From Flavobacteriales bacterium (GTDB lineage: Bacteria; Bacteroidota; Bacteroidia; Flavobacteriales_D; Crocinitomicaceae): DNA of 35,693 nucleotides. Where the stretch lies: positions 1 through 35,693 of the forward strand of contig CANJNE010000013.1 of NCBI GenBank assembly GCA_947475275.1. The letters run 5' to 3'. Both the position numbers and the translations under genes were made by a program. The notes under the pieces were generated by a model. The model had not been told where the DNA came from. It saw only the letters and a program-made list of their open reading frames with translations, and ran no database searches. Below, in pieces: positions 12,604-20,283 of the stretch (positions are counted from its first letter, which is position 1; each line of letters opens with the position of its first letter).

Positions 12604-15600
12604 TCAATCCCACAGTAAATTAGATGTTTCAAGAATTGGAACTCCTTGATTAATAAGCTCTTCTTGAAGTGCATTGATTTTTAACAAGAGTGGTGAAAGT
12701 TGCTCGCGGAATGTATTGTATTCCTCCTTCACGATTTCAAGAATTCTTTCTTGAGTAGAGGTCACCTTGTATGTATTGTCATAAAGGGAATATTCAAGAA
12801 GCCCAAAACGTTGAGAAAAACCGGGGTAGGTTTCAAATTCTTTTGATGTTTTTAGGGCATCACCATTCATTAATATCCCGCAAGAGTCTATGCTTATGTT
12901 AATTTCTCTTGCCAACGTCAGATTTCCAAAATTGGTATTTGGATATTCTTTTAAAGCATAAATGATGGTATTAATTCTTGTTTTTGCAGCATCCAATATA
13001 AATGATGCATTATTAAGTAATTTTCCTGTTGCGGCAACTTCAGCTTTAAATATTTTCACATCCTCTGAAATGGCAATTGTATATTCTTTTTCATAAAGTG
13101 GTTTTACATTAAAACTTACTTCTTCGGCAAGGGTGTCTATTTTTCCATTATTAACCAATACAACATTTAAGTAGTAGACTCCTGCTGACACAAGAAAACC
13201 ATTGTTTCGATCTGATGTTGAACCAATATTTACAGGGTTTGAAGAGGTGCTTCTTAGGTTCCATGTAACACGTTGAATTCCTTTTTGAGGACTTGTAACC
13301 AATCTTCGGATCTCGTTATTTTGACTATCTGAAATTATCAGAATCAATTGCGCATTAGCCTCATTCTTCTCTGCGCGCAGTTCATCCATTGTAGGGTATA
13401 AAACATCGGATTTGCTTTTTTCCAATTCTTTCTCTTTTTCAATACGAGTGCTCTTAAGTGTTTTATCTTGGTCCTTGATGTAAATCGTAAAGGTTGCTCC
13501 AAAAGATGGATTAGATGCTGACCACAAATTGGCACCTTGAAATCCAGTACCTTCTAAACCAAGTGGGTCTGCCTGAACATATAGCAAGGCGTCTTTGATA
13601 GGAAATACATGACCTTTCTTTTCTAAGCTAGTTGCATTTAACATTCTTAAAGGGCTGTAGTTGTCAAGAACATAAAATCCTCTCCCAAATGTTGCTGCTA
13701 CCAAATCGTTTTCTCTCTTCTGTATGTCTAAGTCATAAACAGCTATGGTCGGTAAACCGCTAATTTTCACCCAATTTTTTCCGCCATTGTTAGAGAAATA
13801 TGCCCCGAATTCGGTGCCTACAAAAAGTAAGTTGGGGTCTAGATGATCTTGTTTTATGCAATAAACGGAACCCCTTTCAGGTAAATCGGATGCAATACTT
13901 ACCCATGTTTTACCTTTGTCAGCACTTTTTAAAAGGTATGGTTTAAAGTCTCCTGAGCGGTGGTTATTAAAAACTGCATAGACGGTATTCTCATCGTGAA
14001 TAGAAGCAGTAATCATATTAACTCTCGTGAACTCTGGAATACCCGTGAAAGAACTAATTTTTGTCCAATTTTTACCATCATTCTCAGAAACCTGAATCAA
14101 TCCATCATCTGAACCAATGTATAAAAGGCCTTTTTTCTTTGGTGATTCGTCCAAAGCAACAATATTTCCATAAATGGTTGTTGATGCATTTTTCATAACG
14201 GCGTCTATCGACCAAACTTGCCCCATCACTTCGAGTTTGTTTCTATCTATTTGACTGGTTAAATCCGGCGAAATAGTTTGCCAATCATCACCTTGATTTG
14301 TTGACTTGAACAATTTGTTAGCAGCGAAATATAAAGTTTTATTATCGTGACTTGAAACGATGAGAGGCGCATCCCAATTCCATCTGTAAGCATCTTCACC
14401 TTTTCCAGGTTGTGGTTGAATAAAGAATTTTTCTCCTGTATTTTTATTGTAGCGAATAAGCCATCCATATTGTGCTTGGGCATAAGCAATGTCGGGGTCT
14501 AGCGGATCGGTAGCAGATTCAAATCCATCTCCTCCATTGGTGATATACCAATCTGTATTAAGTATACCGGCAACATTATTAGTTGCTGATGGTCCACCCA
14601 TCGAATTGTTGTCTTGAGTGCCACCATATATATTGTAAAAAGGCAAGGCATTATCAGTAACAACTTTGTAGAATTGTGTAATAGATAAATTTGAATAGTA
14701 ATACCATTGCTTGGCTGAATTATAGGTTTCATAAATTCCTCCATCACAACCCGCAATCCAATGTTCTGTATTTTCTGGATCAATCCAAATTGCATGATTA
14801 TCTACATGTTTTTGGGATTCGCCTGTTGCTTTGAAGGTTACCCCTCCATCTTCAGTGTGATGCATATAGGTATCCATTGCAAAAACTTTATCCTTATCCT
14901 TCGGATCACAAATAATTTCTTGATAATAATTCCCACTGGTATTAAATCCAGACATTTTATTCCAAGATTCTCCTTTATTGGTTGATCGAAAGAAACCACC
15001 TTTTTCATACTTACCTTCAATGATTGCATAAACAATATTTGGGTCTACAGGAGATACAGCAATTCCAATTCTACCCATTTCTCCTTTTGGTAATCCGTTG
15101 GTGATTTCTCTCCAAGTGGTTCCACCATCCTCCGATTTATATAAGGTAGACTCTGGCCCACCTCCAATATAAGTCCATTCATGTCTTCTTCGTTGATGCG
15201 CTGACGCATATAAAATTTGTGGATTTGTCGGATCAATAGCAATTTCAGAAATACCCGTCTCATCTGAAATAAATAATGTTCGGGTCCACGTTTTTCCTCC
15301 ATCAGTTGTTTTATATACACCTCGTTCTCCTCCAGAACTCCAAAGAGGACCATATGCAGCCACCCAAACGGTATTTTCGTCATTAGGATGGATAATAATA
15401 TTACCGATATGTTCTGATTTCATTAATCCCATGTTGGTGAAAGAAATACCACCATCTATTGATTTATATACCCCATCGCCATATGCCGCTGATCTTTGAT
15501 TGTTATTTTCACCTGTACCAACCCATATAGTGTTGGGATTACTAGCAGAGATTTCAACACATGAAGTTGAAAATGAACCGTAAGTATCAAATATGGGTGA

Positions 15601-15858
15601 AAAAGTGGAGCCATGATTCGTTGTTAGCCATACTCCTCCTGATGCTGCTGCAATAAACCATTTATCTTTATTGGTAGGGTGAACGGCAATTTCAGCAACC
15701 CTTCCCGATGTTAAAGCCGGTCCAATTGACCTAAAGGAAATTCCTGATAGGGTAGATGCATCAAATAAATTCTTTGGTGTTTCTTCTTTAGATTTTTTCT
15801 GAGAAAATGAGAATAAAGGGACTAAGAATAAAACAAATAGAATAACAAAATTTTTCAT
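12604..15858 (-). CDS. Secreted VPS10/BNR-repeat beta-propeller protein
   Basis: A 1084-residue protein with a signal peptide (hydrophobic residues 4-19, cleavage near SFSQ). The first ~730 residues carry at least eight Asp-box/BNR motifs of the form S/T-x-D/N-x-G-x-x-W, such as TTDGGKTW, SEDGGTTW, STNKGESW, STNQGDDW, SENDGKNW, SADKGKTW and SNNGGKNW, which mark sortilin-VPS10 or sialidase-like propellers. The C-terminal ~300 residues contain an Ig/FlgD-like stretch (RRLVTSPQKGIQRVTWNLRS) and helical segments. No T9SS sorting domain or lipobox is visible, so it is probably periplasmic or exported another way. Homologues are often annotated as glycosyl hydrolases, but catalytic residues are not evident; enzyme activity is unproven. 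Confidence 0.87.
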   Translation of the reverse strand: MKNFVILFVLFLVPLFSFSQKKSKEETPKNLFDASTLSGISFRSIGPALTSGRVAEIAVHPTNKDKWFIAAASGGVWLTTNHGSTFSPIFDTYGSFSTSCVEISASNPNTIWVGTGENNNQRSAAYGDGVYKSIDGGISFTNMGLMKSEHIGNIIIHPNDENTVWVAAYGPLWSSGGERGVYKTTDGGKTWTRTLFISDETGISEIAIDPTNPQILYASAHQRRRHEWTYIGGGPESTLYKSEDGGTTWREITNGLPKGEMGRIGIAVSPVDPNIVYAIIEGKYEKGGFFRSTNKGESWNKMSGFNTSGNYYQEIICDPKDKDKVFAMDTYMHHTEDGGVTFKATGESQKHVDNHAIWIDPENTEHWIAGCDGGIYETYNSAKQWYYYSNLSITQFYKVVTDNALPFYNIYGGTQDNNSMGGPSATNNVAGILNTDWYITNGGDGFESATDPLDPDIAYAQAQYGWLIRYNKNTGEKFFIQPQPGKGEDAYRWNWDAPLIVSSHDNKTLYFAANKLFKSTNQGDDWQTISPDLTSQIDRNKLEVMGQVWSIDAVMKNASTTIYGNIVALDESPKKKGLLYIGSDDGLIQVSENDGKNWTKISSFTGIPEFTRVNMITASIHDENTVYAVFNNHRSGDFKPYLLKSADKGKTWVSIASDLPERGSVYCIKQDHLDPNLLFVGTEFGAYFSNNGGKNWVKISGLPTIAVYDLDIQKRENDLVAATFGRGFYVLDNYSPLRMLNATSLEKKGHVFPIKDALLYVQADPLGLEGTGFQGANLWSASNPSFGATFTIYIKDQDKTLKSTRIEKEKELEKSKSDVLYPTMDELRAEKNEANAQLILIISDSQNNEIRRLVTSPQKGIQRVTWNLRSTSSNPVNIGSTSDRNNGFLVSAGVYYLNVVLVNNGKIDTLAEEVSFNVKPLYEKEYTIAISEDVKIFKAEVAATGKLLNNASFILDAAKTRINTIIYALKEYPNTNFGNLTLAREINISIDSCGILMNGDALKTSKEFETYPGFSQRFGLLEYSLYDNTYKVTSTQERILEIVKEEYNTFREQLSPLLLKINALQEELINQGVPILETSNLLWD

Positions 15859-18117: not shown

Positions 18118-18125
18118 TATCTTCG
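18118..18125 (+). promoter_or_regulatory. Candidate -7 box driving the cobalamin riboswitch transcript
   Basis: TATCTTCG differs by one base from TAnnTTTG. Transcription would start about 6-8 bp downstream, just where the P1 stem of the riboswitch begins (18135), which supports the assignment. Confidence 0.5.
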
Positions 18126-18132
18126 CGACGAT

Positions 18133-18287
18133 TTTATGGTTTTCGTCTGCGAAATTAATAAGGAATCCGGTGAAATTCTGGAACTGTGTCTGCAGCTGTA
18201 ATTACTGTTAAATCGCATCAAATGTCACTGTCTTACAAAGGATGGGAAGACGATGCGAGTTGGTAAAAGTCAGAATACTTGCCATAG
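18133..18287 (+). promoter_or_regulatory. Cobalamin (B12) riboswitch aptamer
   Basis: Conserved B12-element segments occur in the right order and spacing: GGAATCCGGTGAAATTCTGG (18162-18181), CTGCAGCTGTAA, GTCACTGT (18224-18231), GGGAAGACGATGCGA and AAGTCAGAATACTTGCC ending near 18283. Closing stem P1 is supported by TATGG 18135-18139 with CCATA 18282-18286. A further helix is supported by TCGCATC 18213-18219 pairing with GATGCGA 18252-18258. The aptamer binds a cobalamin and normally represses the downstream gene when B12 is plentiful. It is followed by ~130 nt of leader before the BtuG-like gene. Confidence 0.95.
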
Positions 18288-18414
18288 ATGTTGAGCGAAG
18301 ACTTCAGATTAAAGTCGGTCTCATGACTGCTAATCCCTTGGATAGTTGGTTGTGTCCCTCTTTTTTCATGTTTCCGTTTTTTGGTTTATTATTTAATTTT
18401 TAAAAACAGAAAAA
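18288..18414 (+). promoter_or_regulatory. Riboswitch leader / possible expression platform
   Basis: This leader between the aptamer and the ATG at 18415 contains alternatives that cannot form together: GACTT at 18300-18304 can pair with AAGTC (~18312-18316), which can otherwise pair in part with GACT at ~18325. A weak hairpin (GGATA with TGTCC, one G-T) precedes CTCTTTTTTC near 18358-18367, a possible weak terminator. I cannot tell whether control acts on transcription or translation. Confidence 0.4.
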
Positions 18415-19692
18415 ATGAAAAAAATTACACTTTTATTGTCACTTTGTTTGAGCAACTTTATGCTAGCTCAAAACTATGTTCATCAAGTTTATGTGCTAAA
18501 TGAAGGTTATTTTGATTACCAAACAAACACCATTCTTGAACCAGTAACATTAGGGTCATATAATCCTCAATCAGGAGTTTATTCGGTAGTTGATACAATT
18601 GAAAATATGCGTTTTGGTTCTGACATATACGTGGATGGAGATTTTGCATATGTAGCTGCTGATAGCAAGATCATGAAGTACAATAAAAATACAAATCAAT
18701 TGGTAGGAAGTGTGGATTGTCCTGGTGTTAGAAATGTTGTGGTATCCAACAATTATCTGGTTGCTACAAGGGGAGAATATTTGACGACATTCGATTCCTA
18801 TTTACATGTTTATGATGCAACTTCTTTACAGTTGGTTCAGGCAATTGATACGGTAAATGGTCCAAAGTGGGCAGCTCAAAATATGGTAATCAATGGTTCA
18901 ACAGTATATATAGCAGTGAATAATGGCTATGAATGGGGTAATGAAAAAGGTATAATTGGTCAACTTGACTTATCAAATTTGACTTATGGTAATGAAATTG
19001 ATTTAGGTTTGGATGGACGTAATCCTGATAACATGATGATTTCTGGATCAACCATTTTAACGGTTAATAACAAGGATTGGTCTGGAGCTTCTGTTTCAAA
19101 GTATGATATTGTTTCTGGTATTGCGACAACAAATACTATAGCTTCAACAATAACAGGATGTGGAACGTCATGTTTGAGAGAAGATAAAGTTGTTTACCAA
19201 ATTTCAGGTGAATCTACTTTGAATGAATGGAATATATTAACCATGTCCCCGGTTGGACCCGTTGCGAATCATAATCTAAATTATTATGAAATTGTGGAAG
19301 ATCAAATCAATGGGTTGTTTTATGCAAGCAATACAGATTTCTTCTCTTTTGGTAAAGTAAATATTTACGATGCATCGAACAATTTTATAAATAGTTTCGA
19401 TACCGGTGTATCTCCTGGAACTATTGCTTTTGATGTTAGAAGTGCTGCCGGATTGAATGATCTAAATTTTTCCGTTAATGTATATCCCAATCCTAGCAAT
19501 GGTTTAATTCAAATTGAGGGAATTACTGACGCTGAGGTTGCAGTATATTCAATCACTGGTGAAAAATTGTTGTCACTTGATATGTTGAATTCTTCAACGG
19601 TAGATCTTTCTGAACTGCCTTCAGGAAATTATTTTGTCAGCATTATACAAAACGATTTTACGAAAACAGTAAAAGTTATTTTGACAAAGTAA
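18415..19692 (+). CDS. BtuG-like surface beta-propeller with T9SS sorting domain (B12-regulated)
   Basis: A 425-residue protein with signal peptide (MKKITLLLSLCLSNFMLAQ). The body (~20-340) is a YncE/YVTN-type propeller: VYVLNEGYFDYQTN, FGSDIYVDGDFAYVAADSKIMKYN, LVGSVDCPGVRNVVVSNNYL, WAAQNMVINGSTVYIAVNNGY, NPDNMMISGSTILTVNN, FDTGVSPGTIAFDV. The last ~75 residues are a type A T9SS sorting domain (VNVYPNPSNGLIQIEG, DLSELPSGNYFVSII). In gut Bacteroides the propeller lipoprotein BtuG captures B12 at the cell surface and works with BtuB. The riboswitch directly upstream and the N-terminal NEG motif make a BtuG-like role likely here, but B12 binding is inferred, and no BtuB gene is present in the window. 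Confidence 0.8.
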   Translation: MKKITLLLSLCLSNFMLAQNYVHQVYVLNEGYFDYQTNTILEPVTLGSYNPQSGVYSVVDTIENMRFGSDIYVDGDFAYVAADSKIMKYNKNTNQLVGSVDCPGVRNVVVSNNYLVATRGEYLTTFDSYLHVYDATSLQLVQAIDTVNGPKWAAQNMVINGSTVYIAVNNGYEWGNEKGIIGQLDLSNLTYGNEIDLGLDGRNPDNMMISGSTILTVNNKDWSGASVSKYDIVSGIATTNTIASTITGCGTSCLREDKVVYQISGESTLNEWNILTMSPVGPVANHNLNYYEIVEDQINGLFYASNTDFFSFGKVNIYDASNNFINSFDTGVSPGTIAFDVRSAAGLNDLNFSVNVYPNPSNGLIQIEGITDAEVAVYSITGEKLLSLDMLNSSTVDLSELPSGNYFVSIIQNDFTKTVKVILTK

Positions 19693-19695
19693 TCC

Positions 19696-20283
19696 ATGTC
19701 GTTCTTGTCTTCTGATTATTGGTCAAACCGTTACGAAGTTGGTCAGACTGGTTGGGATTTAAAAAATATTTCTCCTCCTCTTAAGGCCTACATCGATCAA
19801 TTGCAGAACAAAAACTTAAGAATATTAATTCCTGGTGCGGGTTATGGGTATGAGGTAATGTATCTTTTTCAAAAGGGTTTTACGCATGTTAATTATCTTG
19901 ATTTTTCGCCCGCTCCTTTGGAAAATTTCAAAAAAAATCTTCCAGAATTTCCGGAAGAACAATTGTTTTGTGAGGATTTCTTTAAACATACAGGAGCATA
20001 TGATTTGATTTTAGAACAAACCTTGTTTTGTGCTATAGATCCTGAATTGAGAGATTATTATGCGAAAAAAGTTAATGATCTTCTAGTTCCTGGTGGAAAG
20101 CTTGTTGGTCTTTTATTTAACCGTCAATTCGATTCAGGGCCTCCATTTGGTGGAACAAAAGAAGAATATATGAGACGTTTTGAACCTTATTTTTCAATTT
20201 GTAAAATGGAAACCTGCTACAATTCTGTTGATGCAAGATCGGGAACTGAACTATTTATTCAGTTGCAAAAAAGTGTAAGTTGA
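19696..20283 (+). CDS. TPMT-family SAM-dependent methyltransferase
   Basis: A 195-residue class I methyltransferase. DYWSNRYEVGQTGWDLKNIS near the N-terminus and SPPLKAYIDQL are the TPMT-family signature. SAM-binding motif I is ILIPGAGYGYE (residues ~44-54), motif II is NYLDFSPAPLENF and EDFF; later blocks are DLILEQTLFCAIDP, LLVPGGKLVGLLF, GPPFGGTKEEYMRRF and CYNSVDARSGTELFIQL. Family members methylate thiols, thiopurines or Se/Te compounds. Its start lies 3 bp after the stop of the B12-regulated propeller gene, so it should be on the riboswitch-controlled transcript. The link to cobalamin is not known. Confidence 0.9.
   Translation: MSFLSSDYWSNRYEVGQTGWDLKNISPPLKAYIDQLQNKNLRILIPGAGYGYEVMYLFQKGFTHVNYLDFSPAPLENFKKNLPEFPEEQLFCEDFFKHTGAYDLILEQTLFCAIDPELRDYYAKKVNDLLVPGGKLVGLLFNRQFDSGPPFGGTKEEYMRRFEPYFSICKMETCYNSVDARSGTELFIQLQKSVS

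Follow-up and report, generated by a model that had tools for sequence, protein, structure and literature searches.

A BtuG-like propeller protein with a predicted type IX secretion tail behind a cobalamin riboswitch in a genus of Crocinitomicaceae

In Bacteroides thetaiotaomicron, the proteins that capture vitamin B12 are described in the accessible parts of PMC12751083 and PMC6143338 as lipoproteins of BtuB loci, and the cobalamin riboswitches of this species repress genes when B12 is plentiful (accessible part of PMC6143338). No T9SS-exported B12-binding protein was found in the accessible portions of the literature combining BtuG, cobalamin or riboswitches with the type IX secretion system (T9SS), and neither T9SS nor type IX is mentioned in the available part of PMC13398666. 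Here, we analyzed a stretch of 35,693 nucleotides (the window) that constitutes contig C13 (CANJNE010000013.1) of the draft genome G000, from a bacterium of the family Crocinitomicaceae, in which a complete cobalamin riboswitch precedes a gene for a BtuG-like propeller protein with a T9SS sorting tail. We consider it probable that this protein is an exported accessory B12 trap, located in the slot that BtuB and BtuG fill in other members of the genus. The riboswitch and the propeller gene are composed as follows:

18120–18300, + strand: cobalamin riboswitch aptamer (RF00174; 89.3 bits, E 5.4e-21, model positions 1–189, complete)
18301–18414, + strand: leader from the aptamer to the start codon, 114 nt
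18415–19692, + strand: BtuG-like propeller protein, predicted T9SS cargo, open reading frame (ORF) of 425 aa
18415–18468, + strand: signal peptide, residues 1–18, read from the sequence, probably cleaved before Gln19; no lipobox
18472–19449, + strand: beta-propeller domain, residues 20–345, from an AlphaFold2 model and structure comparisons
19480–19680, + strand: T9SS type A sorting domain, residues 356–422 (PF18962, TIGR04183)

The AlphaFold2 model of the protein, obtained with a 17-sequence alignment, had a mean predicted local distance difference test score (pLDDT) of 84.7 and showed a beta-propeller over residues 19–344. The best 13 chains recovered with Foldseek, belonging to eight entries, were all BtuG (E 2.8e-16 to 1.9e-13), and the next match was an archaeal surface-layer propeller (E 1.2e-12). 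Comparison with VIA-align 2 gave Z scores of 30.8–33.6 for 11 BtuG entries, with root-mean-square deviations (rmsd) of 2.3–2.6 over 294–301 residues and 14–16% identity, and a Z score of 29.4 for the best non-BtuG chain (rmsd 2.6, 280 residues), the margin being small because propellers resemble one another. BtuG was therefore the best structural match with both methods, and the structure comparison proposed in the preliminary description of this locus agrees with the BtuG-like fold suggested there. At the sequence level, the link with BtuG was visible just with the 17-sequence profile, which matched BtuG structures (best E 4.4e-7) and, with hhalign, the BtuG proteins of relatives over residues 22–339 (probability 96.7, E 3.9e-10); the profile of the latter matched B. 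thetaiotaomicron BtuG1 at E 5.1e-91. Used as a lone query against the PDB, the window protein recovered T9SS-tail chains and one chance match, and no BtuG.

Signs of a ligand-binding face were detected in the propeller. With loop faces assigned by strand order instead of coordinates, and loop 30–43 left out, 28 of the 76 top-face loop positions were at least 95% identical among 47 non-redundant homologues (three of 50 non-redundant sequences, below 40% identity, were dropped), versus 2 of 40 in the bottom-face loops, with entropies of 0.87 and 1.46, respectively (Mann–Whitney p 1.5e-4). In addition, the propeller contains 34 acidic and 15 basic residues; a net charge of −18e is given for BtuG2 in the accessible part of PMC10404256. 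By analogy, this conservation and acidity fit a BtuG-like ligand site, B12 binding itself being a prediction.

Regarding export, the C-terminal tail scored 44.4 bits with PF18962 (cut-off 27) and 46.6 bits with TIGR04183 (cut-off 23), as corresponds to a type A cargo, and a signal peptide ending in MLA, followed by Q, was read by eye, without a signal-peptide program. A lipobox-like Cys at residues 14–35 was absent from all 67 full-length family proteins, the window's included, according to a pattern that itself flags just 7 of 11 BtuG. An A/G/S-Q pair at residues 13–26 was present in 66 of these 67 proteins, and 58 had no Cys at residues 12–40, the other nine having one at 12–15. In the comparison set of BtuG, 10 of the 11 proteins have a Cys at residues 14–21, the exception being that of genome G450, without any; the lipoprotein anchor of BtuG was, in consequence, not recognized in the propeller family. 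SprA, the sole part of the secretion machinery searched, was represented by an SprA_N match in a 2443-aa frame on contig C10 of G000 and was present in 25 of the 26 genomes of the genus, the window's genome among them. Export through the T9SS is thus predicted from the tail, and the propeller would be located at the cell surface. Separately, two riboswitch-linked homologues (L121:10001–11164, 387 aa; L123:401–1597, 398 aa) showed no T9SS tail by Pfam.

The riboswitch match, full-length and above the RF00174 gathering score of 31.5, was the single one found in the window's genome (a 2.68 Mb draft in 183 contigs, 95% complete). The preliminary description, which reported a complete riboswitch followed by a propeller protein with a signal peptide and a type A tail, was accurate in this respect. 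Folding of the leader in search of an expression platform revealed no terminator-like site and no convincing sequestering hairpin within 18301–18414, and was barely better than that of shuffled sequences (z −0.4 to −1.5). By analogy with the B. thetaiotaomicron riboswitches, an OFF type, repressed by B12, may be expected here.

The association of the propeller with the riboswitch was also found among its homologues. RF00174 was present upstream in all 17 relatives' loci tested, one of them cut by a contig end. In a set of named genomes that overlaps with the former, 78 loci were found, and a covariance model placed a riboswitch just upstream of 68 of them, with 47–139 nt (median 103) between aptamer and start codon. 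This model was used instead of a strict regular-expression search for the B12 box, which missed most riboswitches, and was derived from 13 riboswitches belonging to this group; as ten of these training sequences fell within the 68 loci, 15 other loci were checked with Rfam's own model, which confirmed the riboswitch in all 15. Among the ten named loci without a riboswitch, the match starts right at a contig edge in six (L124, L128, L133, L135, L136, and L138), L139 is a tail-only match, and L126, L129, and L137 are true misses, the first two labelled Saprospiraceae and the third with its gene split into two fragments. The link was thus present in 68 of 71 usable named loci. A full-length frame was found in 66 of the 78, most of the other 12 being cut by contig ends. 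A search through the phylum, covering 395 genomes, detected the propeller in four, namely that of the window, G046, G321, and, weakly, G450; a count of matches in 98 of 99 genomes consisted almost entirely of T9SS-tail matches and was disregarded in counting homologues. The S15-Flavobacteria ribosomal leader (RF03161) was observed on the opposite strand at around 0.1–1.3 kb from the riboswitch in L009, L320, and L321 and in nine named loci, such as L065 and L099.

The gene that follows the propeller in the window, not mentioned in the preliminary description although included in its interval, begins 3 nt after the propeller ORF:

19696–20283, + strand: TPMT-like S-adenosylmethionine-dependent methyltransferase, second gene after the riboswitch (Pfam TPMT, 91.7 bits)

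Its Pfam score exceeds the cut-off of 26, whereas that with the NCBIfam equivalog model (51.1 bits) is far below the cut-off of 223.2. Of the six BtuB operons that were read within the family, five end with a homologue of this methyltransferase, and the gene trails the riboswitch unit in both of the locus versions of the genus described below. A very weak match to a model for corrinoid-protein-associated methyltransferases (17.7 bits, cut-off 180) was also noted. The unit lies between a gene for an OmpA/PD40 protein, on the upstream side, and one for an enzyme like phosphoenolpyruvate synthase or pyruvate phosphate dikinase, beyond the methyltransferase; Pfam analysis of the neighbours detected neither BtuB nor BtuFCD next to the propeller gene, as had been described before. 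Elsewhere in the window, positions 12604–15858 of the minus strand encode a 1084-aa protein with Sortilin/BNR repeats.

Comparison within the genus revealed two versions of the locus. In G002, G003, G005, and G021, the riboswitch leads an operon that encodes, in this order, a DUF4465 protein, BtuB, BtuG (a lipoprotein with DUF5074), a protein named here X, and the same methyltransferase. The same order was found in G042, from another genus, and G026 has the operon without the methyltransferase and with a DUF4465 protein devoid of a T9SS tail. Such a tail was detected in the DUF4465 protein of G005 (41.1 bits) and in protein X of G026 (34.3 bits), with a sub-threshold score for protein X of G005 (23.1 bits, cut-off 27). 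Among the 26 genomes of the genus, all drafts (G019 being partial and G008 split across two contigs), 15 carry the propeller, seven carry BtuB, and eight carry BtuG (the same seven plus a partial one in G023). There was no overlap between propeller and BtuB/BtuG in any of the 26, and G001, G016, and G018 had neither. The riboswitch before BtuB was read in the first four genomes named above, out of the eight with BtuB/BtuG, and DUF4465 and protein X are known from the loci read.

Seven propeller loci (L077, L080, L108, L111, L113, L114, and L115) are preceded by a receptor gene of the same family and followed by that of the methyltransferase. Between G005 (BtuB version) and G006 (propeller version), the upstream receptors share 67% identity, the next G006 receptor being 32% identical to that of G005; in the window's genome, this receptor is on contig C74 and 75% identical to that of G005. 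As the same receptor and methyltransferase flank both versions, these appear to have been exchanged in place, in one direction or the other, with orthology based on the G005/G006 pair. In two genomes more distantly related to that of the window, the propeller is accompanied by BtuB and BtuG. The order in G064 (L134) is btuF-btuC-btuD-like genes, riboswitch, propeller, X, BtuB, and BtuG, and that in G069 is riboswitch, propeller, X, BtuB, and BtuG; these are the only homologues with an adjacent btuB. Within the 78 named loci, BtuB and BtuG were found within five ORFs downstream in L134 alone, different genes following the propeller in the others, often on the same strand, so that transcription of the propeller alone cannot be claimed.

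Additional observations were made on the proteins of these operons. Protein X, of about 320–335 aa, was encoded in each of the eight BtuB operons examined closely (L140–L145, L197, and L198; for instance, at L142:4177–5148, L197:7353–8339, and L198:6068–7075), and its sole Pfam match in the two scanned, L142 and L144, was the T9SS tail, below the cut-off in L142. At L142:8173–9132, the BtuB operon opens with a gene for a T9SS-tailed DUF4465 (BtuJ-type) protein, which has homologues in L140, L141, L143, and L145. Finally, a gene for a propeller-like lipoprotein, as read from the sequence, follows the propeller at L123:1676–2794 and L125:11159–12316, that of L123 matching the BtuG profile at 3.5e-13.

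The bacterium of the window appears to depend on B12. B12-binding domains were found in the 26 genomes of the genus; in that of the window, the proteins containing them are methylmalonyl-CoA mutase, a fused mutase, and a MetH truncated at the end of a contig. By contrast, CbiC, involved in corrin-ring synthesis, was found in none of the 26, making de novo synthesis unlikely. Genes for BtuF-, BtuC-, and BtuD-like proteins lie together on contig C84 of G000 and encode a candidate B12 transporter, and a FecCD permease was found in 24 of the 26 genomes.

The outer-membrane step was less clear. With the profile of the congeners' BtuB, no match at E ≤ 1e-30 was obtained in the 15 propeller-carrying genomes of the genus, the window's included, and the best scores among the receptors read from three propeller genomes were 70.8, 91.8, and 32.0 bits; the true BtuB of three congeners scored 964–1035 bits but are members of that profile. 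The E. coli BtuB model gave 156, 150, and 140 bits for receptors of 619–641 aa from the propeller genomes G017, G006, and G025, compared with 108 bits for the operon-borne BtuB of G003 and 96.9 for the relative of these receptors in the window's genome, none of them passing the cut-off of 599.7. TIGR01779 was above its cut-off in none of the 26 genomes, a test that says little because it fails even in those carrying BtuB. A BtuB-like receptor of 612–638 aa was found in G000 (618 aa, on another contig), G001, G006, G017, and G025; it was absent from G046 and was not the best match of the other propeller genomes, without a dedicated profile search. This receptor is a transporter candidate for some members of the group. 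With respect to the riboswitch-linked btuB that the preliminary description proposed to look for elsewhere in the genome, no second RF00174 and no congener-type BtuB were found, and what the genome does hold elsewhere is this receptor and the BtuFCD-like transporter.

TonB-dependent receptors were also compared in nine genomes, among the matches listed, with 80 stretches read from six of them: G000, G006, and G046 with the propeller, and G005, G021, and G003 with BtuB, the last contributing just 10 stretches. Receptors of G017, G008, and G002 were listed without reading, and a few weak matches stayed unread in every genome. One receptor family was present in the three propeller genomes and in none of the three BtuB genomes. 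We rejected it as a partner of the propeller because it looks like SusC and adjoins a SusD-like lipoprotein gene (our own reading) and a glycosidase fragment.

According to the model that we favor, of an exported accessory B12 trap, low intracellular B12 would let the riboswitch permit synthesis of the propeller, which would leave the cell through the T9SS and capture corrinoids outside the outer membrane. The captured B12 would be handed over to a TonB-dependent transporter and, from there, to BtuF and BtuCD. In the two distant relatives, this function would be exerted at the head of a BtuB and BtuG operon, and in the window's lineage, with just the methyltransferase behind.

Several results weigh against this model. 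The strands of the propeller are nearly as conserved as the top-face loops (44 of 155 positions at least 95% identical, entropy 1.01), and non-BtuG propellers also reach Z scores of 29. DUF5074 (PF16819) was not matched at E ≤ 1 by any of the 17 family proteins scanned by Pfam; the homologue in L126 reached 15.5 bits, under the cut-off of 27.2, and the BtuG of relatives 37–98 bits. An olfactomedin-like propeller family was matched by 6 of 17 members (best E 9.1e-5), and just 7 of the 48 positions conserved among 11 BtuG are kept, as scored in 15 propellers. Moreover, a tree of 30 proteins, with a midpoint root and two long end branches, separated the 17 propellers from the 11 BtuG as a clade of their own at 100/100. 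No cobalamin riboswitch was found for the intact T9SS-tailed homologues in L126, L129, and L318 (G321, in the 15 kb read), or for the split one in L137; thus, the homologues without the riboswitch that the preliminary description regarded as contrary evidence do exist, together with a link that holds in nearly all usable loci. Finally, the BtuB encoded in the G064 and G069 operons escaped the congeners' BtuB profile, which means that the propeller genomes may hold a diverged BtuB, and no partner receptor was established in the receptor scans of these genomes.

Judging from the sequences, the window protein is a member of a sister family of BtuG, and not BtuG itself. The earlier proposal, in which the T9SS delivers a BtuG-like trap to the surface instead of lipidation, is thus partly supported: its observations were confirmed, and its interpretation was right in direction and wrong in membership. 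That the protein is a BtuG whose lipid anchor was swapped for a T9SS tail seems very improbable to us. A protein of this type seems to exist in G450 (L319:2706–6238), where the riboswitch is followed by BtuB and then by a 448-aa protein in which both DUF5074 and a T9SS tail were detected (58.7 and 46.2 bits, respectively) and whose propeller scored 85.5 bits with the BtuG model versus 42.7 bits with that of the window's family. However, the 100/100 branch splits the window's family from the 11 BtuG, that of G450 included, and both families coexist in G064 and G069.

Other explanations were weighed as well. In a stronger form of the favored model, the propeller, released or surface-held, would replace BtuB and BtuG and feed a different TonB-dependent transporter, making uptake independent of BtuB. 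The failure to find a congener-type BtuB, the low receptor scores, and a genome without CbiC that nevertheless encodes MetH, two mutases, and a BtuFCD-like transporter would agree with this, but we regard it as unlikely, given that the 619–641-aa receptors outscore the BtuB of G003 with the E. coli model, so a diverged BtuB may be present, and that the sole propeller-only receptor family looks like SusC. Somewhat more doubtful is an ordinary T9SS surface protein, such as an adhesin or an enzyme, controlled by B12 without binding it. A riboswitch is informative on regulation alone, and the loss of most BtuG positions, the riboswitch-less homologues, and the weak olfactomedin-like matches would fit such a protein, whereas the BtuG-closest fold, the conserved acidic propeller, and the operon in which it precedes X, BtuB, and BtuG, next to btuFCD-like genes, would not. 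We give hardly any credit to the possibility that the unit is decaying after the loss of a B12 locus, an idea arising from the five-gene operon that the riboswitch leads in congeners, because the riboswitch is retained, most named loci are full-length, and more than a third of the top-loop positions are almost invariant.

Within one genus, two alternatives are found behind the same kind of riboswitch, a BtuB/BtuG locus in some members and a lone BtuG-like protein with a T9SS tail in others. If this protein binds B12, the T9SS would join the routes for vitamin scavenging, and these would be tractable bacteria in which to look for a B12 transporter not yet recognised or for an extracellular carrier of B12 that is shared among cells. 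A far-reaching version, in which one exported propeller, perhaps released as a shared scavenger, functionally replaces BtuJ, BtuB, and BtuG under the same riboswitch, seems to us rather unlikely. An apparent dependence on B12 in the face of no recognised standard importer in the outer membrane makes the uptake route a testable question.

In conclusion, the protein combines features of several known systems. Like BtuG1–3 of B. thetaiotaomicron, its best structural match, it is a strongly acidic beta-propeller under a cobalamin riboswitch; however, BtuG is a surface lipoprotein with DUF5074, encoded beside BtuB, whereas here a T9SS tail is present, lipobox, DUF5074, and adjacent BtuB are absent, and the family forms its own clade. 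BtuK1 (PDB 9s6c), also a B12-binding protein, was a structural match weaker than BtuG (Z 25.9, rmsd 3.2, 294 residues), and differs as a lipoprotein enriched in vesicles, as stated in the accessible part of PMC12751083. The BtuJ/DUF4465 proteins bind B12 as well, and in the congeners the BtuB operon behind the riboswitch opens with a T9SS-tailed DUF4465 protein, but their fold is a jelly roll, not a propeller (same part of PMC12751083). Finally, the protein shares with T9SS type A cargo the signal peptide and the PF18962/TIGR04183 tail, in a genome with SprA, and differs from it in that the cargo domain is BtuG-like and placed under a B12 riboswitch.

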